64,000 nt of DNA from Arcobacter lacus (GTDB taxonomy: Bacteria > Campylobacterota > Campylobacteria > Campylobacterales > Arcobacteraceae), in NCBI RefSeq assembly GCF_003063295.1, contig NZ_MUXF01000010.1:186001-250000 (forward strand), in the 5' to 3' direction. Positions 45,996-64,000 of the stretch are shown here, piece after piece; position 1 is the first letter of the stretch, and every line of letters begins with the position of its first letter. A program made the translations under genes and the position numbers. The notes beneath the pieces were generated by a model, which saw nothing but the letters and a program-made list of their open reading frames with translations, made no database searches and was not told the DNA's origin.

Positions 45996-47393
45996 ATGAA
46001 AAGAGAGTTAGTATTGAAATATCTTTTATTGATTTTTTATTTTTTTAATTCAAATCTCTATTCTAACGGTGATTCTTTAGATTCAAAAAAAATTTTCGTT
46101 TTTTTAGAAAATTCTCTTTTAATAAATAATCAAATTGAAATAGACTATGAATCAATTATACAAATAGCACTTCTAGCATTGATTTTAGTGGGTACATTTA
46201 TATATTGGAATTTTAAATTAAAAGAGAGTGAAGCAAAGTTTAGAACGCTTTTTGATATTGCACCAATTTTTTTAAATTCATTTGATAAAAATGGAAAAAT
46301 TATTTTATGGAATAAAGAGTGTGAGAAAGTTTTTGGTTGGACTTTTGACGAAATAAAAAATAAAAAGAACTCTTTGAGCCTATTTTATGATGATCCAAAA
46401 GTTTGTGAAGATGTTATGAAATCATTTGAGAATATAAGTAATAGCTTTGAAGAGTGGTATCCAAAAACAAAAAAGGGAGAAACATTAGTTGTAAAATGGG
46501 CAAATATAAAACTTCCAAATGGTGAAACTATAAATGTGGGATTAGATATTACACAACAAAGAAACTATGAAATGTCAATTAGTGAAAATGCTTTAGAACT
46601 AAAACTTGCAAAATCACAATTAGAAAATTTAAATAGTTCTTTAGAAAAAAGAATTGAAAATGAAATAACAAAAAATACAAAACAACAACTTATGATAATG
46701 CAACAAAATAAATTAGCTCAAATGGGTGAAATGATAGAAAATATCGCACATCAATGGAGACAACCTTTAGCTCAAATAAATTCATCGGTTATTTTAATTG
46801 ATGCAATGTTGGAAAAGTATAATTTTAAAGATGCTATGGTAGAAAATAAATTAACAGAAATAGAATCTTTAACTTCTTATATGTCAAAAACTATTAGCGA
46901 TTTTAAAAATTTTTTTAATCCAAATAAGAAAAAAACTATTTTTAAAGTAGAAGAAGCCGTACAAAAAGCTAGTGATGTTTTAAAAGGATTAATTCACTCT
47001 TATCATATTCAAATGGAAATAAGTGTTGAAAAAGACTTAAAAATCAATAGTTATCTAGGAGAATTACAACAGGTTATTTTAATAATTGTAAATAATGCAA
47101 TAGATGCTCTTATTCTCATGAATGTTCATTTCCCAAAAATTTTAATAAATGCATATACTGATAATGAAAATATAGTTATTTCTATAGAAGATAATGCATT
47201 AGGGATAAATTCAGATTTATTGGATAAAATTTTTGAGCCATATTTTACAACAAAACATAAAGCTCAAGGAACAGGATTGGGACTTTATATTGCTAAAATG
47301 GTTGTTGAAAATAGTTTATTAGGTTTTTTAAGTGTTGAAAATAAGGTAAATGGTGCTTGTTTTATCATTAGAATACCAAAAGGAAAAGTATGA
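45996..47393 (+). CDS. PAS-containing sensor histidine kinase
   Basis: A 465-residue kinase. It has an N-terminal signal-like hydrophobic segment (about 8-22), a short periplasmic stretch, a membrane helix (about 53-70), one PAS domain (about 78-185; FRTLFDIAPIFLNSFDKNGKIILWN), a coiled coil, and a kinase domain. The H-box is EMIENIAHQWRQPLAQINSS, characteristic of Campylobacterota, with NNAIDAL and TGLGLYIAKMV in the ATPase. The ATG at 45996 has no clear ribosome site; TTG 46014, preceded by AAGAGAG, is a reasonable alternative. It overlaps its partner regulator by four bases, and the pair lies directly upstream of the adhesin secretion operon. Confidence 0.92.
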   Translation: MKRELVLKYLLLIFYFFNSNLYSNGDSLDSKKIFVFLENSLLINNQIEIDYESIIQIALLALILVGTFIYWNFKLKESEAKFRTLFDIAPIFLNSFDKNGKIILWNKECEKVFGWTFDEIKNKKNSLSLFYDDPKVCEDVMKSFENISNSFEEWYPKTKKGETLVVKWANIKLPNGETINVGLDITQQRNYEMSISENALELKLAKSQLENLNSSLEKRIENEITKNTKQQLMIMQQNKLAQMGEMIENIAHQWRQPLAQINSSVILIDAMLEKYNFKDAMVENKLTEIESLTSYMSKTISDFKNFFNPNKKKTIFKVEEAVQKASDVLKGLIHSYHIQMEISVEKDLKINSYLGELQQVILIIVNNAIDALILMNVHFPKILINAYTDNENIVISIEDNALGINSDLLDKIFEPYFTTKHKAQGTGLGLYIAKMVVENSLLGFLSVENKVNGACFIIRIPKGKV

Positions 47394-48079
47394 TGGAAGA
47401 AATATATCCATACAAAATTTTATTTGTTGAAGATGAAGATGCAATTAGAAAAAATTATATAACATATTTGAAAATGTTTTTTAGTGAAGTTTATGAAGCT
47501 TCAGATGGTGAAGAAGCTTATAAACTTTATGAGTTATATAAACCAGATATTTTGATAGTAGATATAAATATTCCAAAAATAAATGGATTAGAATTACTCA
47601 AAAAAATAAGAGAAAAAGATATGACTACAAAAGCTATTATAATGACAGCTCATAGTGATAGAACATTTTTACTGGAAGCTGTGACATTAAAACTTACGAA
47701 ATATCTAATAAAACCGGTTAATAGAAAAGATTTAAAAGATGCTTTAGAATTAGTTATTGACGAATTGTTAAATTATGATATTCAGTCGATTCAAAAAATA
47801 GAATTACCAGAAAAATATAGTTGGGATTTAACTATAAAAGAATTAAAACATTATAATAAAGTAATTGATCTTACAAATAAAGAAAAACTCTTTTTAGATT
47901 TACTTCTTTCAAAAAGAAATAAAGTATTTACTTATGATGAAATTTTTGAATATGTTTGGAACTTTGAGGATGAAATAAATTTAAATGGACTTAAAAATAT
48001 GGTGAAAAGATTAAGAAAAAAAGTTCCAGAAAATCTAATTTTGAATATTTTTAATGAAGGATATAAAATTAATTTTTAA
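47390..48079 (+). CDS. OmpR-type response regulator upstream of the secretion operon
   Basis: A 229-residue regulator. The receiver has FVEDEDA (acidic pair near residue 14), the phospho-acceptor in ILIVDINIP (near 57), Thr in MTAHSD and Lys in LIKPVN. The C-terminal winged-helix domain (about 140-229) contains LTNKEKLFLDLLL, VFTYDEIFEYVWNFEDEINLNGLKNMVKRLRKKVP and a final EGYKINF. The next gene, 240 bases downstream, begins the type I secretion operon, and a tandem direct repeat lies in that gap. Control of the secretion operon by this regulator is a strong inference from arrangement. Confidence 0.93.
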   Translation: MMEEIYPYKILFVEDEDAIRKNYITYLKMFFSEVYEASDGEEAYKLYELYKPDILIVDINIPKINGLELLKKIREKDMTTKAIIMTAHSDRTFLLEAVTLKLTKYLIKPVNRKDLKDALELVIDELLNYDIQSIQKIELPEKYSWDLTIKELKHYNKVIDLTNKEKLFLDLLLSKRNKVFTYDEIFEYVWNFEDEINLNGLKNMVKRLRKKVPENLILNIFNEGYKINF

Positions 48080-48318: not shown

Positions 48319-50889
48319 ATGAAATTGAAATCAAATAAGAGATTAATTAGTGTTGTTGCAAGTGCAATATGTTTATTGGGTGTTAACCTTAATGCCTTAA
48401 CACTAAAAGAGAGTGTTCTAGAAGTTTTAGATACAAATCCTGTAGTACAAGAAAGATTAAAAAATTTTAATGAAACTCAACAAGATTTAGAAATAGCAAA
48501 GTCAGAATGGCTTCCATCTCTTGATTATTCAGCTAGAATAGGAAGAAATAATAGTGGTGACTTAAAAGATAGTGGTAACTCAAAATTTGACCATACAGTT
48601 CAAGATAGTACATATTCTCATTATACAAACTCTTTAAAACTTACACAAAATATTTTTAATGGTTTTAGTACAACTCATAAAATAAATTATCAAGAAACTA
48701 GAATATTAGGGGCAGCATATCATTATCTAGAAAATGCAAATGATATCGCATTTCAAATGGTTGGAGCTTATATAGATGTTATCAGAAGTTACCAGTTATA
48801 TCAAAATGCAAAAGATAATGTTGACATAAATCAAAAAATTTATGACGATGTAAAATCTTTATATGAACAAGGTTTAACAACAAAGTCTGAAATGACAAAA
48901 ATTTATGCTTCTTTATCATTGGCAAATTCAAATTTAGTTGTTCAAAAAAATAATACTATGGATAAAGAGTTTAGATTTAAAAGACTTTTGGGTAGAGATG
49001 TAAAAGTTTCTACTTTAACTTTACCTGCATTAAACTATGCAATGCCAGAGAGTAAAGAGAGAGCAACTATGGTTGCTATTCAAAATAATCCTTCAATCTT
49101 AGTAAGTAGTTTTAATATAAAAGGTGCACAAGAGTTATACAAACAAAAAAAATCTGCATTTATGCCAACAGTAGATTTAGAGTTAGAACAAGTATTTAAT
49201 GATTACACAACAGAAAATGCTTATGATAGTGCTGATGATAGACAAAAAGCTTATGTTGTTATGAATTGGAATTTATATAAAGGTGGAGCTCACGAAGCTG
49301 ACTTACAAAAAAGTAAAAGTTCAATAAGTAAAGAAGTTGAACTACAAAGAGATTTAAAAAGACAAACTATTGAAAGTTTAGAACTTTCTTGGTCAGCTTA
49401 TGAAATGCTTGGAAAACAGCTAGAAGAATTATATAAATATTATCAATATTCAGAAGATACTTTAGAAAGTTATAGAAGTGAATATGAGATGGGAAGAAGA
49501 ACGCTTCTTGATTTATTATCAGCACAAAATGACTTAGTAAATTCAAAAAGTCAAATTATAAATGCACAAATGGACAAACTTTTTGCACAATATAGAGTTT
49601 TAGATGCGATGGGAGTTTTAGTAAGTTCAGTTGTAGATGAAACAGAATATAACAAACTTATTAAACCAACATTAAAACCATTTGATATTGTAAAAGATGA
49701 ATTACCAGTAAATCTTGATGTAGATAAAGATGGAATTGTTGATAATTTAGATATTTGTGATAATAGTGTGGTTGGAAATGATGACATAAAACCGGATGGA
49801 TGTTCTCAACAACAAAAAGATTCAGATTTTGATGGAATTCCTGATTTCAAAGATAAATGTCCAAATACGCCATTTGGAAGCTTAGTTGATGAAAATGGTT
49901 GTGAAACGGGAGAAAATAGTGAAAATGGTTTTAAAGCTAATGAAGATTATTTAAAATCTATTATAGCATACACAGAAGAAAGTCCTAAAAAATCACCAAA
50001 ATTGGGTTTATATGATTATGAATTTAATGTTGCTGCAAATAAAAATATTCAATCAACAGCTTTAGATAACCACTTAATGTATGATGATTTTACAATGATT
50101 AAAAGATTTGAATTTATTAATATGAGCAAATCAAGAGAATCTCAAATTGAAAAAATTGCAAATGAAATCAAACAATACAATGATAAAAATGTAGTTGTAA
50201 CTATTATTGGAAATACTGAAATTACAAAAAATAAAGATAAGAGTTATAATAAAGCAATGGAATATGCAAATACAATTAAAAATGATTTAGTAAATAAAGG
50301 TGTAAATAAAGATATCTTAGTAACTCAATCAAGAGTTGATTATGATAGAAGTTATTTAGAAACATCTTTAGGTGATGGAAATTTAAACAATGTAGTTGCA
50401 GTTGCTTTATATGTTCCAAAAACTATTCAAAAAGCTACTGACACTAATGATATAGCTGATAGTGATAAAGATGGAGTAATTGATTCTTTAGATAAATGTC
50501 CAAATACGCCAGTTGGATATACTGTTGATGAAAATGGTTGTACAAATACTATAAATTTAGAAGTTTTATTTGAAAATAATTCAGCTGTAATAAAAGAAGA
50601 TACAAAAGGAAAAGTATTGTCTTTTGCAAAATATTTAGTAGATAATAAAGAGTTTGATACGATAATTGAAGGACATGCAAGCAAAGATCCAACAGCATCT
50701 GCAGCACATAACCAAAAACTATCAGAACAAAGAGCAAATGCTATAAAAAATTTATTAATTGCAAATGGAGTTGAAGCTTCAAGAGTTCAAAGTGTTGGAA
50801 AAGGACATAATGAACCAATAGCAGATAATTCAACAGTAGAAGGTCAAGCTTTAAATAGGAGAATTGATGCTATACTTATAAGAAAATAA
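48319..50889 (+). CDS. TolC-family outer-membrane channel fused to OmpA domain
   Basis: An 856-residue type I secretion channel with a C-terminal peptidoglycan-binding extension. Residues 1-26 are the signal peptide. Residues 27-445 are the TolC fold, with two internal halves (VQERLKNFNETQQDLEIAKS and a later NPSILVSSFNIKGAQELYKQKKSAFMPT). Calcium-type thrombospondin-3 repeats follow (about 468-530; DKDGIVDNLD, DSDFDGIPDFKDKCPNTP). A divergent OmpA-like domain (about 568-705) comes next, then a second TSP3 repeat (DSDKDGVIDSLDKCPNTP), and a canonical OmpA domain (about 748-856) with LSEQRANAIKNLL and NRRIDAIL. It heads the secretion operon, 26 bases before the ABC gene. Confidence 0.92.
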   Translation: MKLKSNKRLISVVASAICLLGVNLNALTLKESVLEVLDTNPVVQERLKNFNETQQDLEIAKSEWLPSLDYSARIGRNNSGDLKDSGNSKFDHTVQDSTYSHYTNSLKLTQNIFNGFSTTHKINYQETRILGAAYHYLENANDIAFQMVGAYIDVIRSYQLYQNAKDNVDINQKIYDDVKSLYEQGLTTKSEMTKIYASLSLANSNLVVQKNNTMDKEFRFKRLLGRDVKVSTLTLPALNYAMPESKERATMVAIQNNPSILVSSFNIKGAQELYKQKKSAFMPTVDLELEQVFNDYTTENAYDSADDRQKAYVVMNWNLYKGGAHEADLQKSKSSISKEVELQRDLKRQTIESLELSWSAYEMLGKQLEELYKYYQYSEDTLESYRSEYEMGRRTLLDLLSAQNDLVNSKSQIINAQMDKLFAQYRVLDAMGVLVSSVVDETEYNKLIKPTLKPFDIVKDELPVNLDVDKDGIVDNLDICDNSVVGNDDIKPDGCSQQQKDSDFDGIPDFKDKCPNTPFGSLVDENGCETGENSENGFKANEDYLKSIIAYTEESPKKSPKLGLYDYEFNVAANKNIQSTALDNHLMYDDFTMIKRFEFINMSKSRESQIEKIANEIKQYNDKNVVVTIIGNTEITKNKDKSYNKAMEYANTIKNDLVNKGVNKDILVTQSRVDYDRSYLETSLGDGNLNNVVAVALYVPKTIQKATDTNDIADSDKDGVIDSLDKCPNTPVGYTVDENGCTNTINLEVLFENNSAVIKEDTKGKVLSFAKYLVDNKEFDTIIEGHASKDPTASAAHNQKLSEQRANAIKNLLIANGVEASRVQSVGKGHNEPIADNSTVEGQALNRRIDAILIRK

Positions 50890-50914: not shown

Positions 50915-53077
50915 ATGGTTAATCAGAATTTGAGAAAAAATGATAGTTTATTAGAGTGTTTAGTTTTGTATACAAGGCTTTTTCATAAGCCATTTTCTTC
51001 CGAATCTTTGCTTCAAGGGTTGCCGTTAGGATCAAATATAACTGATCAGATGCTCTTTTCTAAAAATAGTTCAAAATCTATGTTTAGCAGGGCAGCCGCA
51101 AGAGCAGGACTTAAGACTACAATTATTGAAAAACCAATTAAAGATATATTGAGTTTACAACTGCCTGTAATTTTATTTTTATCAAATGAAAATAGTTGTA
51201 TTTTAGACTCATTTAATGAAGATAAAACAAAAGCAAAAATAATTTTTCCAGGTGTTGATGATCCTTTACAAGATTGGGTAGAAATTGAAAAATTAGAAGC
51301 TGAATATTTAGGTTATGCTTTTATGTTAAAAAAAGCATATGAGTATGAACATGAAAATGGACAAAAAACACTCGATATAAATAATCAAAAACATTGGTTT
51401 TGGAGTACATTAGGTTTTTCAAAATCTATTTATCTTGATTGTATTTTAGCTTCAATTTTGATAAACCTTTTTGTTTTAGCAACACCACTTTTTACAATGA
51501 ATGTTTATGATAGAGTTATTCCAAATAATGCTCAAGAAACATTAGTTGTATTTACCGTAGGTATTGTTATTGTATTTTTGTTAGATGGTATTTTGAAATT
51601 TTTAAGAACATATTTTTTAGAAATTGCGGCTAAAAAAAGCGATATTATCATGTCATCTATTATTTTTGAAAAAGTTTTAGATTTACAATTAAGTTCTCAT
51701 CCAAAATCAGTTGGTTCATTTGCAAATAACTTAAAAAGCTTTGATAGCATAAGAGGTTTTTTAACAAATTCAACATTGAGCGTACTTGTAGATTTTCCTT
51801 TTGCACTTTTATTTTTAATAGTAATATTTTATATATCTGGTATGTTAGTATTTATTCCTATTTTTATAATATTTTTGATTGTTATTTATGCAAAAATGAT
51901 AAAAGATCCTTTAAAAGCAAGTATTGAAAGCACTTATGAAGCAAGTGCTAAAAAAAATGGAATATTAATTGAAGCTTTACAAAATATTGAAACAATAAAA
52001 GCACAAGGTATGCAAGGAAATATTCAATATAACTGGGAAGAATCAACAGGTGAAATTGCAAATAAAAGTTTGAAATCAAAAATAATATCTGCTTCAATTC
52101 CTACAGTTACTGGTATTTTAGTTGGGTTAAATACAGTTTTGATTATTTGTTTTGGTGTTTATCAAATTCAAGAATTTCATTTAACAATGGGAGGATTGAT
52201 TGCAACTATGATTTTATCAGGAAGAGCAATAGCTCCTATGGGACAAATAGTAAGTTTAATTACAAACTATGAAGATACAAAACAATCTTTTAAAATGTTA
52301 GATGATATTGTAAATAGACCAATTGAACGACCATTAGCTAAAGAGTTTGTAAAAAGACCAGCTTTAAGAGGTAATATTGAGTTTAGAGATGTTTCTTTTA
52401 AATATCCAGATAGTGATTTATATGCTTTAAAAAATGTAAGTTTTACTATAAATGAAGGTGAAAGAGTTGCATTTATTGGAAGAATTGGTTCTGGTAAAAG
52501 TACAATTGCTAAGTTATTGTTGAAACTTTATGAACCTGAAAGTGGTTCAATTTTAATTGATGGAATTGATATTGCACAAATTGATCCTGCAGATTTAAGA
52601 CAAAAAATGAGTTATGTTCCTCAAGATGTTCATTTATTTAGAGATACTATAAAGAAAAATATTTTAGGTATTCATAAATTTGTTGATGATGAGTGGATGC
52701 TAAAATGTTCAAAAATTAGTGGAACAGATGAGTTTGTGAAACTTCATCCAATAGGTTATGATATGCCAATTGGTGAAAGAGGACAAGGTTTATCAGGAGG
52801 GCAACGACAAAGTGTAGCAATTGCAAGATCTTTGATAAATAATGCTGATATTTGGTTATTTGATGAGCCAACGAATGCTATGGACCAAACAAGTGAAATG
52901 AATGTTCTAAAAAATTTAAAAGAGAATTTAGATGATAAAACTCTTTTAATAGTTACACAAAAGATGAATATGTTAGATTTAGTTACAAGAGTTATTGTTA
53001 TGAATTTCGGTGAAAAAGTTTTAGATGGAAGTAAAGAAGAAGTTATAAAAAAATTAGGAGGAGTTTCAAATGAATAA
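50915..53077 (+). CDS. LapB-type type I secretion ABC transporter
   Basis: A 720-residue ATPase/permease that would drive export of the downstream adhesin. The N-terminal 130 residues are a C39-like domain (LLECLVLYTRLFHKPFS) without the catalytic Cys-His arrangement of a true peptidase, which binds substrate in relatives. Six membrane helices span about 155-440. The ATPase has Walker A GRIGSGKSTIAKL, signature LSGGQRQSVAIARSL and Walker B WLFDEPTNAMD. AAAAGGG precedes its ATG. Its end overlaps the adaptor gene by eight bases. Confidence 0.94.
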   Translation: MVNQNLRKNDSLLECLVLYTRLFHKPFSSESLLQGLPLGSNITDQMLFSKNSSKSMFSRAAARAGLKTTIIEKPIKDILSLQLPVILFLSNENSCILDSFNEDKTKAKIIFPGVDDPLQDWVEIEKLEAEYLGYAFMLKKAYEYEHENGQKTLDINNQKHWFWSTLGFSKSIYLDCILASILINLFVLATPLFTMNVYDRVIPNNAQETLVVFTVGIVIVFLLDGILKFLRTYFLEIAAKKSDIIMSSIIFEKVLDLQLSSHPKSVGSFANNLKSFDSIRGFLTNSTLSVLVDFPFALLFLIVIFYISGMLVFIPIFIIFLIVIYAKMIKDPLKASIESTYEASAKKNGILIEALQNIETIKAQGMQGNIQYNWEESTGEIANKSLKSKIISASIPTVTGILVGLNTVLIICFGVYQIQEFHLTMGGLIATMILSGRAIAPMGQIVSLITNYEDTKQSFKMLDDIVNRPIERPLAKEFVKRPALRGNIEFRDVSFKYPDSDLYALKNVSFTINEGERVAFIGRIGSGKSTIAKLLLKLYEPESGSILIDGIDIAQIDPADLRQKMSYVPQDVHLFRDTIKKNILGIHKFVDDEWMLKCSKISGTDEFVKLHPIGYDMPIGERGQGLSGGQRQSVAIARSLINNADIWLFDEPTNAMDQTSEMNVLKNLKENLDDKTLLIVTQKMNMLDLVTRVIVMNFGEKVLDGSKEEVIKKLGGVSNE

Positions 53078-54545: not shown

Positions 54546-55142
54546 ATGCAAAAATTGGCACTCTACACAAAAGATAATTTATTATTAAATAGATGGGAAA
54601 ACTTTTTGACTAACTATGAAATAAAAATTATTGAAGATTATGAAGATTTGATTAATTTGGAAAATTCTTTATTAATTTTAAGTAGTTGTGTTGATTTAGA
54701 AAATGAGGAATTTATTCTTTCTAATATACTTAAAAAAGAGAATAAAGTTTTGTTTTTAGAAAGAGTTCCTAATTTACAAAAAGCCAAAAATTGGTTTGCT
54801 TTAGGTATCCAAGGATATGGAAACTCTATGATGGCATCAGTTTATTTAAATTCGGCAATAGAAACGATTTTGAATGGTTATATTTGGTTACTTCCTGAAA
54901 TAACAACTCAATTAATAAAAAATATAAATATTGAAAAAAGTCAAAATACTAATGAAATATTTAAAGATTTGACAAAAACAGAAGAAAAAATAGCTATTTT
55001 AATCAAAAATGGATATACAAATGTACAAATTAGCGATGAATTAAATATTTCAGTAAATACTATAAAAACTCATATCAAACATATCTACGAAAAACTTCAA
55101 GTAAATGACAGATTGTCGTTTATAAATCTTTTTTTTAAATAA
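54546..55142 (+). CDS. LuxR/NarL-type regulator with degenerate receiver domain
   Basis: A 198-residue protein. The C-terminal 60 residues are a LuxR-type helix-turn-helix (LTKTEEKIAILIKNGYTNVQISDELNISVNTIKTHIKHIYEKL). The N-terminal 125 residues have the length and strand pattern of a receiver but begin KLALYTKDNLLLNRW without the acidic pair, and the usual phospho-acceptor strand reads SLLILSSCVDLEN with no Asp at its end. Phosphorylation is therefore doubtful. It is the last gene of the secretion operon (six bases after the adaptor stop) and lies 91 bases before the adhesin start, next to a 20-bp palindrome. It is most likely the regulator of the adhesin gene. Confidence 0.85.
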   Translation: MQKLALYTKDNLLLNRWENFLTNYEIKIIEDYEDLINLENSLLILSSCVDLENEEFILSNILKKENKVLFLERVPNLQKAKNWFALGIQGYGNSMMASVYLNSAIETILNGYIWLLPEITTQLIKNINIEKSQNTNEIFKDLTKTEEKIAILIKNGYTNVQISDELNISVNTIKTHIKHIYEKLQVNDRLSFINLFFK

Positions 55143-55152
55143 ATTTTATCAA

Positions 55153-55217
55153 TATCACCCTTGTGGGTGATAGACAAGCCCTTCTTAAAATATTATAATT
55201 TGTTATTAAATTATAAT
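55153..55217 (+). promoter_or_regulatory. Palindromic operator and promoter of the adhesin gene
   Basis: TATCACCC (55153-55160) and GGGTGATA (55165-55172) form a perfect 20-bp inverted repeat with a TTGT centre. TAGACA (55171-55176) and TATAAT (55194-55199) are separated by 17 bases, so the palindrome is centred about 43 bases upstream of the predicted start. A second TATAAT occurs at 55212-55217. Confidence 0.6.
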
Positions 55218-55233
55218 TTTTGGAGATGATATA

Positions 55234-58200
55234 ATGTCACAAGTAGGAATAATCAAAACTTTAAGTTCAGGAAAATTTTATTTAAAAGATAATTCTGGAA
55301 ATATAAAAGAACTAAATATTGGTGATACAATATCAGAAAATCAAATAGTTTATGGTGATAGTTCAAATTCAACTTCGGCAAAAGTAGAGATATTGCTTTC
55401 AAGCAATGATGTAATAGTCCTTAGTAATGGGCAAAAGCAGTTAATTGATTCTTCTTTAGTTAAAACAGCTTTTGGAAATGAAGAATTGTTTTTTACTAAA
55501 GAAAATTTAGATTCAACTTTTGATAATCATAATTCAAATTCTAATATAATAAGTGACTTAAGAAATGCAGAATTTGGTGCTGATGTAGAAAAAATTTTAG
55601 AAGAGTCTGCAAATGGTGAGAATCAAGCAACAGGAGATGTTACTGAACAAGAGACTACAGAAGGAAAAGAAGAAGTAGAAGATCAAGAAGAAGGTAATGC
55701 AGAATTTCAAGCCAGAGATGGTAATGAAACAGATGTAAACAGTGATTTAAGAGAAACAAAATTCCCAAGAACTCAATCATATAGAGAAGTAGAAAAAAAT
55801 GAAGAAATTTTAGAACAAGGTTTAAAAGATTTAGGTAGTAACATTTCTAATAATTATTTTAATTCAACTTCTCCTTCAATTATTAGACCAGAATCTGGAG
55901 GAGGAAGAGAAAATAATATAACTCCTACTCCAACTGCTCCTACTCCAGTTGCTCCTATTACAATTCCTCCCGTACAACCAGAAGAATCACAACCTGTAGT
56001 AACATATAAGCAAATGATTTTTATAAAACTTTTTGCAGCTGATAAAAATGGAAATGTATTAAAAGATATTAATGGAAATTATCTTGATGCAAATAAAGCA
56101 GAAGAAGGTACGTTTGCTAAATATATAGCTTATGCTTTTAAAGATGGCGAAACTATTTTTAAAGACGATACAAAATTAAATACTAAAATAGGAAAAATAA
56201 ACATCTCTTTTTATGATAATACAGCAACTGGTAATTCTTCTTCAGATGAAAATGATATTACTGGTTTAAAAGATTACAATAATCTTTCAAAGTCACAAGT
56301 AGAAGTAGGTGTTGCTTTTAGTACCGAAGTTTTTAGAGATAAAATTGATGAACCAGAAGAACTTTATAATGTGATAATTGATCAAAATTCATATATTGGT
56401 AATTATGAAAATGTAAAAATAGATTCAAATCCAGTAACTACAACTATTTTTGATGAAATTATATTTGTAAAAATAGAACCTATAACAACTATAACAAATG
56501 AAGGATTAAATTTAAAATATAAAATTGTAGTGGTAAATAGTTCAGGAGAAGAAGTAAAAGTACCAATAGGAAAAGATATAAAAGTAGATTTATTTTATGA
56601 AGGGAATACTTCTAATCCTGCAACTGTAAATACAGATTATACACCAGTAACGAGTGTTACTATAAATGGAGGAACGAGTTATACAGAATTTGAAATAGTA
56701 ACTAAAGATGATTATTATGCAGAGGGTAATGAAGGATTAAAAGTTACTATTACAAATATAGATAATTCAAGTAATGCCTTTAAAGATATATCACTTCATA
56801 CCGTATTAAATGGAGCGTCAAGTGATAAAATAACAGCTATTGGCACAATAAAAGACAATCCTTCAAAAATTGATCAACCAGATACAAGTACAACTTCTGA
56901 TGACTCAACGAATGGAAGTTATGGGCAAGATGATACAGTTTATGCAATTATAACTGGACCAGCGAATGTAAATGAGGGTGATACAACAACAAATTATACT
57001 ATAAAACTTGTAGATAAAAATGGTGTTGAAGTTATAGTTACAAAAAATACGCAAATTACTGTAACTTATAACAATGAAACAACACAAAATGGTGATACAC
57101 AATATGATAATGGTAATACGATAGCTATAACAATCCCTATTGGTAGTTCATCAAATACTTTTACTGTTGACACAATTGATGATCCATATAAAGATAATGG
57201 AGAAAAATTTAAACTTACAATAACTAATGTACAAAATACAGGTGAGTTTGAAAATGTAAAAATTGGTGATAAAAATGGTGATTATAAAAATGTCACTACA
57301 ACAATTCATGATAATTCAAATAATCAAACAACTGAAACAAATGTAGATTATGTAAAAATCGTACTTGTAGCAGTACCTTCTTCTACAACAAAAATAGCAG
57401 ATATTACAAATTTAGATGGAACTCTAAAAATAGATAATGCAAATGAAACTCCTGAAGGTGGGAACCTTTATTATATAGCAGTTGCTGTTGATAATAATGG
57501 AAAACCTCTTTCAACACAAGAAGGAACTGTAACTGTAAACTATGGAACAACTACTGATAATACAGATAAAGATGCAACAGCTGGAACAGATTATGATAAT
57601 ACGACAGTTGTATCAACAACATTAGGCACAGTATTTAGTGTAAATACAAAAGATGATTATTATGCAGAAGGTGACGAAAACTTTACTGTTAAAATTACAA
57701 ATTTAATAAATTCACCATATGAATCACCATCTATTGATACTTCAAAAGATACTGTAACTTCAACTATAAAGGATAATCCAGCAAAAGTAGAGCAACCAGA
57801 TACTGGAACAGGAAACGATAATCCAACAGATGGAAATTATGGAAAAGATGATACAGTTTATGTAAAAATTACAAAAACACCTTCAACAGTAGAAGGAGGG
57901 AATTTAGTACATACAATAACTTTAGTTGACAAAAATGGGGATCCAGTAACTGTTCCAGCTGGACAAACAGTGACTGTAAATTTGACTTATTCAGCGAATA
58001 GTGGAAATTTTACCGAAAGTGATTTATCTACAATAATAAAAAGTGTAACAATTACAGGTGGAAATAGTTCTGTAAACTTTACAAATATAACTAAAGATGA
58101 TTTTACTTATGAAGGAGATGAAGTTTATAATGTAACTATCTCTAGTGTTACTCAATCAGGAGCTTTTGAAAATGTTGCAATTCATACAGATAAAACTACA

Positions 58201-61200
58201 ACAGGAACTATCAAAGATGGTGTAACTATATATAAAGATGGTGTATATATAGATCCTCAAAATGCAATAGTTGATGAAGATGATTTTGATGTAACTGATT
58301 TAAGTTCTTCAATTAGTAATAAAGATGGAAATGCAAGTGATGGGGTAAATACTTATCAAGGTGAATATTTAAATATTATAAAACCAAATACAGATGATGG
58401 ATATAGTTTAGTATTTGATGATACGATAAATATTTACAAAGGTAATAAAGATAGTCTTGAAGATTATGGTTTGTCAAATTTAAAATCTGGTGGACAAGAT
58501 ATTCATTATCAAATTGTGGGAAATAAAATTATTGGATATATTGGTGCAGATGTAGGAAACGGTATAGTAGCTCAAAATAATAAAGTATTTGAGATTACTT
58601 TAGATAAAGATGCTACTATTAGAGATAATTTAAATAAATTAACATCAGATTCATATACATACATTCAATACAAAAATATCGATCATCCAAAAGCAGGAGA
58701 TGCAACAAATCCTATAAATGATGATAATTTAACTTTTGAATTTGGATTTAAAATAACAGATCAAAATAATTCTGAAAGTGAAGTTATTACATTTAAAGTA
58801 ACAATAAATGACTCTTTACCAAAAACAGTAGATTGGACAGAAAATGTAAATGAAGATGAAAGTCTACAAATTGTTATTTCTCCAGAGAATTTTTTAAATG
58901 GAGAAATCAATATTAGAGTAAATGGTTATGACTCAGCAAATGGAAATAATGGTTATACAACACTTTCAAATGGACAAATTATTAATGTAACAGATCCAAC
59001 TGATAGTTCAAAAGTTATTGGAACATTGACAAATAATGGAAATGGAACAGTAACATTTATTCCAAAAGACGATTATAGTAATTATGCTACTAATCCTTGG
59101 TTTGAATATGCTGTTAGTGATTTTGATGGCGATACAGCAGGTGCAAGAGTAAGTATAAATGTAAAACCAGTAGCTGATGCACCAACAATTTTTGTAAAAG
59201 ATATAACAACAACAGAAGATGCAGGAAATACACAAGAAGGGACAAATAAAGTAGTTTTAGAACTTAAAGTTCCAAATTTATCAAAAGATAGTGATGCAAT
59301 ATCTCAAACGTCCCCAGCTGGTTATACTGCTAAACAAAATAGTAATATAACAGTATCTACACCTACTTTAAATGGTACAGGTGATTATAATGGCATTCAA
59401 ACAGGAGATAATCCAGAAAGAAATGGAGAGATAACTTTAACGTTTATAAATGGAAATAGTGTAACAGGTGCAAAAATTTTTAAATCAGATGGTATTACTC
59501 AGGTTGGAGCAGATATAACAACTGCAAATCAAACATTAAAAATTGTAATAGTAACTGTATCTGGTGATTCTAGCACTATAGATTATACTTATCATCATAA
59601 AGATATTATGGCATCAAATCCAAGTGATGCTATTTATCTTACTCAAGCAGAATATGAATCATTAAAAATTCAACATGCAGAAGATAATGATACAGATATA
59701 AAAATAGGTATAAGTGTAACATCTTATGAACTTGATGATAATGGTAAACCATTGAGTACAGCTACTTATGGAACTCAAGTAGAAAAAGAAACAACAGCAA
59801 ATATGACTGTAAAAATCAATCCTATAACAGATGATATCAAATTAGAGTTTGATAATAATGCAAGCTTAGGAACTATTTCTTCAACAAATAGTACAAATGA
59901 TACTTTTACATTTACAAATAAAATAATAGAAGGTTCAGGAGAAATTATATTAAATAATATTCTTTCAAATACAAGTGGTGGTATTGGAGCTACTCCTGAT
60001 TTAGATGGAAGTGAAAAACGAACTTATACTATTGAAGGATTACCTGAGGGAACTATTGTAAAAATAGGAAATACTGAAGCCATAGCAGGATCAGATGGAA
60101 AAGCTACTCTTACATTTAAAGATGCTGAAAATAAATTATTAGATCCACAATTTACAATACAATTTCCAGAGCATTTTGGTGGTGGAGTAAAAGCTACAAT
60201 TACACTTAGTGTATATGATAAAGGTATGGATAGTACGGATACAAAAGGTGCAACAATTTCTAAAACAGTTTATCTAAACTTAGACGTGGAACCTGTCGTA
60301 ACAACTCCAGATATAAATACTATTCAAGTATCACAAGCTATTGGATATGAAGATGCTGGAAGAAGTCAAGGAAATAGTGCTACTCCAAATTCAACTATAA
60401 ACCAACCACAAAATGGAATACCTTTAAATATTAAAGTTAGTTCAACTGATACAGATGGAAGTGAGAAAGCAAATATAAAAATAGGTGATATTCCAAATGG
60501 AAGTGCCTTATATGTATTTGATAACAATTTAAATAGTGGTGCTGGTGCTTGGGTTTTAGTGGATAAAGACTTTATAAGTTCAGGAAATATCTCTGTAACT
60601 CAAAGTGCTGGGAAATATACAGTTGAGATAAAAGATTATCAAAATGATAAATCACCAAAATTTATTCCAGCATTTAATGAAGATAGTGATCCAACGCTAA
60701 AAGTACAAGTTCAATTTATAGATACAGTAATTTACAATGATGGCACTACAAAAACAGAAACAAGTACTTGGAGTGCTACAAAAGATATAGATGTAATTGT
60801 AAAAAATGTTGCAGATGCTCCTATGGGAACAGAATTAAAAGCAAATATAAGTGTAGATGAAGATAGTGAACTTAATCTACAAAGTATTTACACAACTCCA
60901 GCAAATCTTAAATCAACAGATGCTACTGAAGATTTAACAGTTAAAATAGAGTTACAAACTGGATTTACTATAGTTTCTGGTAGCCCATATTATATAGAAG
61001 ATGGATTATATGTTGTAAAAGCTAGTGATATTGCATCTGGAAATATAAAAATAGTTCCTCCAAAAGATTTTAGTGGAAATGCAAGTTTCTATTTGACTTA
61101 CGTAACTACTGAAAAAGCTGGAGAAAATGATAGTAAAACTTGGCAGACACAAACTGTAAATATTTTTGTAGAGCCACAAGCTGATGACGTAAATGTAAAT

Positions 61201-64000
61201 AGTAGTACAACTATGTATGAAGATGTATCTACAAAAGTAGATTTAGTTGCAACATTAAAAGATAGTGGAACTACATATGGAACTGAAACTATAAATAATG
61301 TTTATATCTTGAAAACTACTATTGATGATATGATATCAAAAGGTTATAAATTAAGTGTAAATGGAGTTGATATTGTTACTAAAACACCACAAAATATAAC
61401 AGGTATAGAAAATGGTGTAGATGGTGAGTATTATGTTTTAACAAACGCCGAAGCAGACCAAATAACTGTAATAAATACTATTGAAAATAAGATAGATGGT
61501 AATTTTACACTTAACGTGGCATATAAAGTTACAGACACAAATGGATCAAGTTCTGATACTAAAATATATGCTCATACTCATGAAGTGATTGTAAAAGCTG
61601 TAACAGACCAGCCAACTTTAACTTTAGGTAATATAACTACAACTTCAGGAACAGATGTAGAAATAAGTGGTACAAATGTAACAGTAAAGGCTGACAGTAA
61701 TACTAATTTTACTATTCCTATAAATACAACAAGTAATGATAACGATAGTAGTGAAACTGTACAAAAAATAGTGATAACTGGTGTACCAATGGGTGTATCT
61801 GTTGAAGGTGCAACATATTATGGGTATTCGGGAAGTGAGCATAATGGTATTTGGGTAATTTTAAATCCAATAGATAATCTTTTAGATTCAAATGGAACTT
61901 TACAGAATATAAAATTTATAATAAATCCTGGTGCAGATTTTGAAAATAGAACAGTTTCAATCACAACTTATACAAAAGATAGTGGTGATGCAAATGTTGA
62001 AAGTGATACAAAAACTATTAACATAATAAAAGATTATGATACTCCAAGTGGCTTACAAGGAAATCCGCCTCTATTTAATTTAAGTACAAAACCAGCAATT
62101 ATTTATGAAGATAATAATGATGGTACACAAGATGTAATTTATAATCTTGGTAAATCTATAAATGTAACAAATAGTGGTGGAGGGACAAGTGGTTATTGGG
62201 CTATAACTATTACTGATTTTCCTGAAGGTACAAAAGTTTCTGGATATGATTATTTTTATGAAGAAGCTGGAAAAACATATTATGTAATAACAGGAACAAC
62301 TACAACAGGAAATGCAGCAGATATTGAAACAAGACTTTCTAATGTTATAGTTACTCCTCCAGAAAATAAAAATTCAGAACAAATTGGAAATCTAAAATCT
62401 GATATGACATTTAGTGCAACTATTTCTACTTCTGATAATGGAACATTTAAAACAGGACAAGGAATTACAAATTATTCAAATTCTATAACAGCTGTTACAG
62501 ATGAAATGACTGTAAATATAAATGTAAGTAATACAAATGAAGATACACCAACAAACCTTACTATTAGATTGACAAATCCAAATGATGCAACAAAAACAAC
62601 ACTTATAGGAAATAGTATCATTATAAAAGTAACTGAAACTTGGGCAGATATTGCTACTGGTGGAGTTGGAGAAAAAGGAACTTTAACAGATTCTAGCGGA
62701 AAGTATAACATTGTTGATAATGGAAATGGAACGTATACAATTACTCCAAAATCTGGAATACCTGCATTTACTGTTGATACTGATATTACTGGTTTAGTTT
62801 ATACTCCTGCATCAAATAGAGATGGAGATGTGAAATTTGAAGTAAGTGTACAAAATAAAGAAGGAAATTCTATAACATTAACTTCAAAAGGTGAAACAAC
62901 AATAAGTATAATTCCAATAGTCGATATGAAACCAAATGTTACAGTTGTAACTGCAACTAGTATAGAAGATTCAGAAATTACTAATGGTAGTACAACTCTA
63001 AAAAATTCAGTAAAACTAGAAGTAACTACATCAGTTAGCCCTGATAGTTCAGAAGAATTTACAAACATAGTATTAGATGAGGTGCCAAATGGTTTTACAG
63101 TTTGGTATATAGATGATTCTAATAATCTTGTAATGGCTACAAATATTGGACAATCAGGTATAACAACTTTTGATTTAACACCAAATATAAATACAGATGA
63201 TGAAGTTCATAGAAATAAGTGGTTAATTCCAGCTTCTTCAGATGGAACTATGCCAGAAATTTATATTAATGCACCAGAAAATTGGTCTGGAGATTTTGAT
63301 TTTAAAGCACAATTTACCTTAAAAGAACAAAATTTAAATACTACAGAAAAAACAGTTGTTAATGTAATAGGGCATATTGATTCTATTGCAGATGGAGTTA
63401 CAATAGATCCAACACTTACATTTGGAAAAGCATTTTCTTGGATAGATTTAAAATTAAATGCAAATATGCAAGATGTAGATGGTAGCGAAACTATGAGTTT
63501 AAAATTAACTGGTCTTAGTGAAAATGCACAGTTTAGATTTAGCGATGGTACAGTTTTAAGTGATGCAACTTGGGATAGTACAACTAATAAATGGACAATA
63601 AATGGAATAACTTTTGATCAAATTAATAATATTCAATTTACAAATGATAAAAATGTATCAAATGTAAGTGTTGAAGCATGGACACAAGAAATAGATAAAA
63701 ATGGAAATCCTATTGATGGTATTATTTCTACGAGTGATACAAAAACATTCAACGTAGATATTAAAGATGTTGGTGGTGTTTTATCTCTGGAAGAAAAAGT
63801 AAATTTAGATTTCACTAAACTTAGTACAGAATCTTTAAAAGGTATAAATATTATAGATTTAAGTGTCACTGGTGAAAACAAACTTGAGAATTTATCATTA
63901 CAAGATGTTTTAAATATAACAAATAATAGTGGAGAACTTACTATAAAAGGTTTGAGTGAAGATAAAGTATCTTTTAAAAATGATGGCTTAAATACATGGA
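55234..64000 (+). CDS. Giant LapA/Bap-like type I secreted adhesin, C-terminus cut by window edge
   Basis: At least 2,922 codons without a stop, continuing past the window. The first 90 residues resemble the retention module of LapA-like adhesins (GKFYLKDNSGNIKELNIGD followed by VEILLSSNDVIVLSNGQ), which keeps the protein plugged in its TolC channel. A charged Glu/Asn-rich stretch and a Pro/Thr linker (residues about 230-250) follow. Residues about 400-1000 hold four Calx-beta-like domains with recurring TKDDYYAEGxE and ITNxxN motifs. From about residue 1000 there are Ig/cadherin-like repeats with VxPVADAPT, EDxS and DGSE signatures. No RTX repeats are visible yet. The final SLQDVLNITNNSGELTIKGLSED resembles the block preceding the C-terminal RTX/secretion signal of relatives. 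GGAG precedes the ATG. It is likely to mediate attachment or biofilm formation. Confidence 0.88.
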   Translation, partial: MSQVGIIKTLSSGKFYLKDNSGNIKELNIGDTISENQIVYGDSSNSTSAKVEILLSSNDVIVLSNGQKQLIDSSLVKTAFGNEELFFTKENLDSTFDNHNSNSNIISDLRNAEFGADVEKILEESANGENQATGDVTEQETTEGKEEVEDQEEGNAEFQARDGNETDVNSDLRETKFPRTQSYREVEKNEEILEQGLKDLGSNISNNYFNSTSPSIIRPESGGGRENNITPTPTAPTPVAPITIPPVQPEESQPVVTYKQMIFIKLFAADKNGNVLKDINGNYLDANKAEEGTFAKYIAYAFKDGETIFKDDTKLNTKIGKINISFYDNTATGNSSSDENDITGLKDYNNLSKSQVEVGVAFSTEVFRDKIDEPEELYNVIIDQNSYIGNYENVKIDSNPVTTTIFDEIIFVKIEPITTITNEGLNLKYKIVVVNSSGEEVKVPIGKDIKVDLFYEGNTSNPATVNTDYTPVTSVTINGGTSYTEFEIVTKDDYYAEGNEGLKVTITNIDNSSNAFKDISLHTVLNGASSDKITAIGTIKDNPSKIDQPDTSTTSDDSTNGSYGQDDTVYAIITGPANVNEGDTTTNYTIKLVDKNGVEVIVTKNTQITVTYNNETTQNGDTQYDNGNTIAITIPIGSSSNTFTVDTIDDPYKDNGEKFKLTITNVQNTGEFENVKIGDKNGDYKNVTTTIHDNSNNQTTETNVDYVKIVLVAVPSSTTKIADITNLDGTLKIDNANETPEGGNLYYIAVAVDNNGKPLSTQEGTVTVNYGTTTDNTDKDATAGTDYDNTTVVSTTLGTVFSVNTKDDYYAEGDENFTVKITNLINSPYESPSIDTSKDTVTSTIKDNPAKVEQPDTGTGNDNPTDGNYGKDDTVYVKITKTPSTVEGGNLVHTITLVDKNGDPVTVPAGQTVTVNLTYSANSGNFTESDLSTIIKSVTITGGNSSVNFTNITKDDFTYEGDEVYNVTISSVTQSGAFENVAIHTDKTTTGTIKDGVTIYKDGVYIDPQNAIVDEDDFDVTDLSSSISNKDGNASDGVNTYQGEYLNIIKPNTDDGYSLVFDDTINIYKGNKDSLEDYGLSNLKSGGQDIHYQIVGNKIIGYIGADVGNGIVAQNNKVFEITLDKDATIRDNLNKLTSDSYTYIQYKNIDHPKAGDATNPINDDNLTFEFGFKITDQNNSESEVITFKVTINDSLPKTVDWTENVNEDESLQIVISPENFLNGEINIRVNGYDSANGNNGYTTLSNGQIINVTDPTDSSKVIGTLTNNGNGTVTFIPKDDYSNYATNPWFEYAVSDFDGDTAGARVSINVKPVADAPTIFVKDITTTEDAGNTQEGTNKVVLELKVPNLSKDSDAISQTSPAGYTAKQNSNITVSTPTLNGTGDYNGIQTGDNPERNGEITLTFINGNSVTGAKIFKSDGITQVGADITTANQTLKIVIVTVSGDSSTIDYTYHHKDIMASNPSDAIYLTQAEYESLKIQHAEDNDTDIKIGISVTSYELDDNGKPLSTATYGTQVEKETTANMTVKINPITDDIKLEFDNNASLGTISSTNSTNDTFTFTNKIIEGSGEIILNNILSNTSGGIGATPDLDGSEKRTYTIEGLPEGTIVKIGNTEAIAGSDGKATLTFKDAENKLLDPQFTIQFPEHFGGGVKATITLSVYDKGMDSTDTKGATISKTVYLNLDVEPVVTTPDINTIQVSQAIGYEDAGRSQGNSATPNSTINQPQNGIPLNIKVSSTDTDGSEKANIKIGDIPNGSALYVFDNNLNSGAGAWVLVDKDFISSGNISVTQSAGKYTVEIKDYQNDKSPKFIPAFNEDSDPTLKVQVQFIDTVIYNDGTTKTETSTWSATKDIDVIVKNVADAPMGTELKANISVDEDSELNLQSIYTTPANLKSTDATEDLTVKIELQTGFTIVSGSPYYIEDGLYVVKASDIASGNIKIVPPKDFSGNASFYLTYVTTEKAGENDSKTWQTQTVNIFVEPQADDVNVNSSTTMYEDVSTKVDLVATLKDSGTTYGTETINNVYILKTTIDDMISKGYKLSVNGVDIVTKTPQNITGIENGVDGEYYVLTNAEADQITVINTIENKIDGNFTLNVAYKVTDTNGSSSDTKIYAHTHEVIVKAVTDQPTLTLGNITTTSGTDVEISGTNVTVKADSNTNFTIPINTTSNDNDSSETVQKIVITGVPMGVSVEGATYYGYSGSEHNGIWVILNPIDNLLDSNGTLQNIKFIINPGADFENRTVSITTYTKDSGDANVESDTKTINIIKDYDTPSGLQGNPPLFNLSTKPAIIYEDNNDGTQDVIYNLGKSINVTNSGGGTSGYWAITITDFPEGTKVSGYDYFYEEAGKTYYVITGTTTTGNAADIETRLSNVIVTPPENKNSEQIGNLKSDMTFSATISTSDNGTFKTGQGITNYSNSITAVTDEMTVNINVSNTNEDTPTNLTIRLTNPNDATKTTLIGNSIIIKVTETWADIATGGVGEKGTLTDSSGKYNIVDNGNGTYTITPKSGIPAFTVDTDITGLVYTPASNRDGDVKFEVSVQNKEGNSITLTSKGETTISIIPIVDMKPNVTVVTATSIEDSEITNGSTTLKNSVKLEVTTSVSPDSSEEFTNIVLDEVPNGFTVWYIDDSNNLVMATNIGQSGITTFDLTPNINTDDEVHRNKWLIPASSDGTMPEIYINAPENWSGDFDFKAQFTLKEQNLNTTEKTVVNVIGHIDSIADGVTIDPTLTFGKAFSWIDLKLNANMQDVDGSETMSLKLTGLSENAQFRFSDGTVLSDATWDSTTNKWTINGITFDQINNIQFTNDKNVSNVSVEAWTQEIDKNGNPIDGIISTSDTKTFNVDIKDVGGVLSLEEKVNLDFTKLSTESLKGINIIDLSVTGENKLENLSLQDVLNITNNSGELTIKGLSEDKVSFKNDGLNTW

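Follow-up and report, generated by a model that had tools for sequence, protein, structure and literature searches.

A palindrome in front of type I-secreted adhesin genes of Arcobacter lacus is very probably a binding site of the LuxR-type regulator encoded with the adhesin export machine

Organization of the locus

The window analyzed here is a 64,000-nt stretch of the Arcobacter lacus genome (nearest named relatives in the comparison: Aliarcobacter, Poseidonibacter, and Arcobacter), in which a run of genes for a TolC-type protein, an ABC transporter, an HlyD-type protein, and a LuxR-type regulator, conserved in relatives, is followed by a giant adhesin gene (Table 1). The TolC-type protein contains thrombospondin-type repeats besides its OmpA domain, a combination that is unusual for an export channel and was also found in relatives. 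A histidine kinase with a PAS domain and an OmpR-type response regulator are encoded just upstream of the export operon (45996-48079, with the OmpR-type gene at 47390-48079), and this pair is a candidate regulator of the export operon.

Table 1 Features of the export operon, the regulator gene, and the adhesin promoter
Feature	Position	Strand	Basis or remark
TolC-type outer membrane protein, C-terminal OmpA domain, first gene of the export operon	48319-50889	+	No box upstream
Type I secretion ABC transporter	50915-53077	+	Sequence annotation of the window
HlyD-type membrane fusion protein, sole copy of its type in the genome	53070-54539	+	
LuxR-type regulator, 198 aa, degenerate receiver and GerE helix-turn-helix; specificity residue T175, invariant H176	54546-55142	+	Pfam, alignment, tree, model
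Adhesin box, inverted repeat TATCACCC-TTGT-GGGTGATA, proposed operator	55153-55172	.	Centre at -43.5; recurrence in genome and family
-35-like TAGACA, overlaps the end of the right arm	55171-55176	+	Promoter scan; poorly conserved in relatives
-10 TATAAT, predicted transcription start near 55206	55194-55199	+	Promoter scan and promoters of relatives
Probable ribosome-binding site of the adhesin gene, GGAGA region	55220-55225	+	Read from sequence
Giant type I-secreted adhesin gene, proposed target; extends past the window end	55234-64000	+	Open frame of 2964 aa in the genome

The initial annotation had described a perfect 20-bp palindrome directly after the LuxR-type gene. Read from the sequence, the arms TATCACCC (55153-55160) and GGGTGATA (55165-55172) were indeed exact, but the central TTGT is not self-complementary, and 16 of the 20 bases pair. 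The described placement was correct, since the repeat starts 10 bases past the stop codon of the regulator gene and ends 61 bases ahead of the adhesin ATG. The promoter named beside it, TAGACA-17-TATAAT, was also present 3' of the palindrome, where it matched the consensus at 11 of 12 positions and was the top promoter-like match of the region; relative to its predicted start, the palindrome is centred at -43.5. An A+T-rich inverted repeat at 55183-55226 (19-nt arms, 84%) spans the -10 hexamer and reaches the ribosome-binding site of the adhesin gene, and the RNA part of this repeat could influence the adhesin translation start.

Copies of the box in the genome and in relatives

Owing to its A+T richness (26% G+C), the window contains a number of inverted repeats of the form 8-N4-8, 8 in all, hence the size of the palindrome alone is not rare. 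With up to three mismatches, the box itself occurred only once in the window (0.07 expected). A base-composition estimate gave approximately 6 × 10−5 perfect copies for the 2.2 Mb genome, in which two were observed, together with one copy that had a single end mismatch and one match with three mismatches within a coding frame, while the reversed-pattern control search of the genome gave no copies. This genome search, which had been proposed in the initial annotation, placed all three good copies at adhesin promoters: each box precedes a gene for a giant type I-secreted adhesin, 56-62 nt from its start codon, each is followed by TAGACA-17-TATAAT, and the N-termini of the three adhesins are alike (MSQVGIIKTL.., MSQVGIVKTL.., and MAQVGVVKSL..). 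The gene before the second genomic box encodes a membrane-transporter-like protein, which means that the box belongs with the adhesin promoter and not with luxR.

The core ATCACCC-N4-GGGTGAT was then searched with at most one mismatch in 104 Arcobacteraceae genomes and was found at 32 places in 24 genomes. Adhesin promoters accounted for 29 of these 32 sites, at the same place before this adhesin family, and the remaining three (in G064, G109:C7, and G010:C7) had one mismatch each and lay within open frames. This recurrence, genome-wide and family-wide, rules out a chance inverted repeat. Outside the Arcobacteraceae, an order-wide sample contained two perfect sites only, one of them in a coding frame. 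The other (L295, 1501-1518), in genome G244 of another family of the order, lies 82 nt before a secreted lipoprotein gene and has a TATACT hexamer 21 nt downstream, so outside the Arcobacteraceae the box may serve other surface proteins too.

A box that also drives the export operon was considered and rejected: no site with three or fewer mismatches was found upstream of tolC, where the best match had six. The single export system is shared by three adhesin genes that have a box and lie at different loci. Both findings support the earlier suggestion that adhesin production would be separable from the secretion operon.

Promoter geometry at adhesin genes

For an analysis from the adhesin side, upstream DNA was taken for 60 adhesin N-termini obtained by protein search, and boxes were scored at up to two mismatches. 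Besides ATCACCC-N4-GGGTGAT (class 1), a second form, AGTACCC-N4-GGGTACT (class 2), was defined at the same place of the promoter. Class 1 or class 2 boxes were present upstream of 38 of the 60 N-termini, and shuffled upstream DNA gave 1 in 12000. One oddly placed copy in G004 was left out, which gave a geometry set of 37 promoters. The distance from the box to the -10 hexamer was 20-22 nt in all 37 (sd 0.6), while the distance to the ATG had an sd of 5.8. The offset was picked within 19-23, and a free scan also peaked at 22 (29/37); because some promoters have a second TATAAT-like hexamer 11 nt downstream, the -10 call was restricted to the conserved offset. With starts predicted from the -10, the box centre fell at -41.5 to -43.5, which is the place of class II activator sites and bears out the LuxR-family activator position that had been assigned to the palindrome.

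The -35 hexamer was weak in most relatives (four or fewer of six matches in 28 of the 37 promoters) and the -10 was good, as expected for an activated promoter. The adhesin promoters of the own genome have a near-consensus -35 (5/6). Two adhesin copies of G013 had no box upstream. These copies (L217 and L218, G013:C1:1253490-1253903 and 1850252-1850660) are shorter, with frames of 1211 aa, and share identical upstream DNA that differs from that of the boxed copy; their N-terminus scores equal to that of the boxed copy, and they are possibly silent or mobile copies.

The regulator and related systems

The GerE domain of the regulator was recognized by Pfam at residues 142-193 (PF00196, 53.3 bits), and its N-terminal part matched neither Response_reg nor an autoinducer-binding domain. 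The predicted model (mean pLDDT 90.4) showed a receiver-like N-terminal arrangement of alternating strands and helices, and fold matches over both domains were LiaR, VraR, VpsT, and NarL, the first three being the closest to this model. At the end of receiver strand 3, the site of the acceptor Asp varies among S, D, T, N, and E, and the Lys after GY is replaced (GYGN). With these active-site residues lost, phosphorylation is probably not what controls the regulator. No other clear GerE protein was found in its genome; three weaker matches were rejected as binders of the box, as they resemble ECF sigma factors in length and appearance. Judged by its sequence and predicted model, the regulator is a NarL/FixJ-type (CsgD/VpsT-like) pseudo-receiver protein and not an autoinducer LuxR, so the name "LuxR-type" holds for a GerE protein that adjoins the box but not for an autoinducer-binding LuxR.

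CsgD controls matrix and large-adhesin genes in Enterobacteriaceae biofilm; its recognition motif is VKTH, and reported CsgD sites contain GGGTGAG. The regulator described here also has a GerE helix-turn-helix, a pseudo-receiver, and a VKTH helix, but it belongs to the Campylobacterota, its gene accompanies those of a type I secretion system, and its putative operator is a clean 18-20 bp dyad that is nearly confined to adhesin promoters. CsgD has been listed as a GerE-type helix-turn-helix behind a pseudo-receiver (PMC12632262). VpsT, which ranked second by sequence among solved structures and was one of the top fold matches, has the VKTH helix in common with our regulator. In Vibrio cholerae, VpsT binds a palindrome (PMC8754643), its activity needs H193 in the DNA-binding domain, and it requires c-di-GMP through R134 (PMC3359988). 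H176 is probably the counterpart of H193. Control by c-di-GMP as in VpsT was rejected and is not expected, since the W-[FLM]-[TS]-R motif is absent and P117 (WLLP) aligns with R134 of VpsT (WLTR). VpsT also differs in that its sites are degenerate and that it controls polysaccharide genes.

In the LuxR-LuxI system, the lux box is a 20-bp inverted repeat near -42.5 that is read by a GerE-type helix-turn-helix. The term "lux-box-like" in the initial annotation is apt for the dyad of about 20 bp near -42.5 of the predicted promoter; it does not extend to the sequence, since ATCACCC-N4-GGGTGAT, as we take it, is unlike the classical lux-box consensus, and the regulator has no autoinducer-binding domain. 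NarL, LiaR, and VraR share the fold, the domain order, and inverted-repeat sites with the system described here, but the receiver of our regulator is without a conserved acceptor Asp for phosphorylation and without the Lys that follows GY. A search of the open-access literature gave nothing usable on NarL contact residues, the CsgD consensus, or the box in Arcobacter.

Recognition helix and box class

In NarL, bases are contacted by the residue that follows TVK, and the corresponding residue of the adhesin regulators (175 in the regulator of the window) was compared with the box classes. T or S was accompanied by a class 1 box in 25 of 26 genomes, against none of 10 other genomes, and K by a class 2 box in all five genomes, against none of 31 others; the Fisher values (4 × 10−8 and 3 × 10−6) ignore relatedness and overstate the pairing, which rests on few independent events, the switch to K being one event in one clade. 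A VK-T/S-H helix pairs with ATCACCC-N4-GGGTGAT and a VK-K-H helix with AGTACCC-N4-GGGTACT. The exception was the S-type protein G114.1, which goes with a different box; the remote K-type homologue G015.2, without a class 2 box, was left out of the test. In the tree, the K-type regulators formed a clade nested within the T/S type, so that the helix residue and the operator changed as a pair. The two regulator types occur together, along with the two box classes, in three genomes (G002, G022, and G027), and by coordinates the K-type gene of G002 and G027 lies directly after the class 2 adhesin gene. Where the T/S-type luxR has no adhesin gene beside it, as in G005, G011, G015, G022, and G024, the remote adhesin genes still carry the box. 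This tracking of the box by the helix, together with the unlinked genomes, makes a DNA site for a trans-acting protein far likelier than a hairpin or terminator.

Proposed mode of action and alternatives

The palindrome is very probably the landing site of the LuxR-type protein encoded with the adhesin export machine; the promoter and the link to the LuxR-type gene that the initial annotation had proposed held up across the Arcobacteraceae. Given the site, the recurrence of its copies, their constant promoter position, and the match between box class and helix residue, we infer that a dimer of the regulator would bind ATCACCC-N4-GGGTGAT with one recognition helix per half-site, and that it would sit immediately upstream of the -35 region, touching it, with its centre at about -43. 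As a class II-type activator, it would recruit RNA polymerase to the adhesin promoter, and the two further adhesin genes with a box would be controlled by the same regulator in trans. We are fairly confident of this reading, in which the palindrome is the operator for class II-type activation by the protein encoded just upstream. The single tolC-ABC-HlyD-luxR cluster without a box would allow export capacity and cargo supply to be set independently, and something other than receiver phosphorylation would control the regulator.

The same protein at the same site might instead be a repressor, which, bound at -43 over the -35, would block the polymerase until a signal comes. The site touches the -35, and the own-genome promoter, with its 11 of 12 consensus positions, might work without an activator, so its good -35 leaves repression some weight. 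In most relatives, however, the -35 is poor and yet the box has been retained in the same phase with the -10, which fits activator dependence, and VpsT and CsgD, biofilm regulators related to this protein, are activators of matrix genes. Given where the box lies and how poorly the -35 of most relatives matches the consensus, we prefer activation and consider repression unlikely.

Much less probable is that the arms act as an RNA hairpin, either as a terminator or processing site of export-luxR operon transcripts or as an attenuator in read-through RNA. The initial annotation had pointed out that the arms could form such a hairpin, and the 93-nt region does fold well (-23.8 kcal/mol, z -4.1); the changes from class 1 to class 2 are symmetric and preserve the pairing. 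As the main function it is nevertheless hardly to be expected: the box stands at a constant spacing from the -10, on the upstream side of the predicted start, it recurs ahead of an adhesin gene whose preceding gene is unrelated, and selection on pairing would not track a residue of the recognition helix. An intrinsic terminator, which as the sole function of the palindrome would have refuted the initial annotation by its own terms, was rejected, as a scan for a G+C-rich stem with a T run found none and the palindrome has no T run. Least probable of all is another regulator at the box, such as the OmpR-type protein encoded with a histidine kinase immediately ahead of the export operon, since the box class follows the helix residue of the LuxR-type protein and genomes with two LuxR-type paralogues have two box classes.

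Significance

Arcobacteraceae are transmitted by water and food, and some of them cause opportunistic infections. No regulator of large adhesins in this family turned up in the open-access literature, and the analysis now offers an identified protein with a well-delimited putative operator and a predicted regulon comprising three adhesins. If the regulator acts at the box as proposed, adhesin production could be controlled apart from export, and the pseudo-receiver raises the question of which signal controls attachment. Helix residue and operator have changed together, which offers a natural experiment in how NarL/FixJ-type proteins select their sites.

Diversification of regulators and boxes

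It may well be, and we put it forward tentatively, that the adhesin regulators of Arcobacteraceae diversify at the single helix position after TVK (T/S, K, or A), that the operator changes symmetrically along with it, and that paralogous regulator-adhesin pairs in one cell are insulated from each other while keeping the same design. Most proteins with A after TVK go with other dyads at the same distance, which have the form TTGYACC..GTACAA or CTGTCC..GGACA. Such dyads were seen before adhesin genes of A-type regulator genomes at L248, L251, L254, L264, and similar loci.
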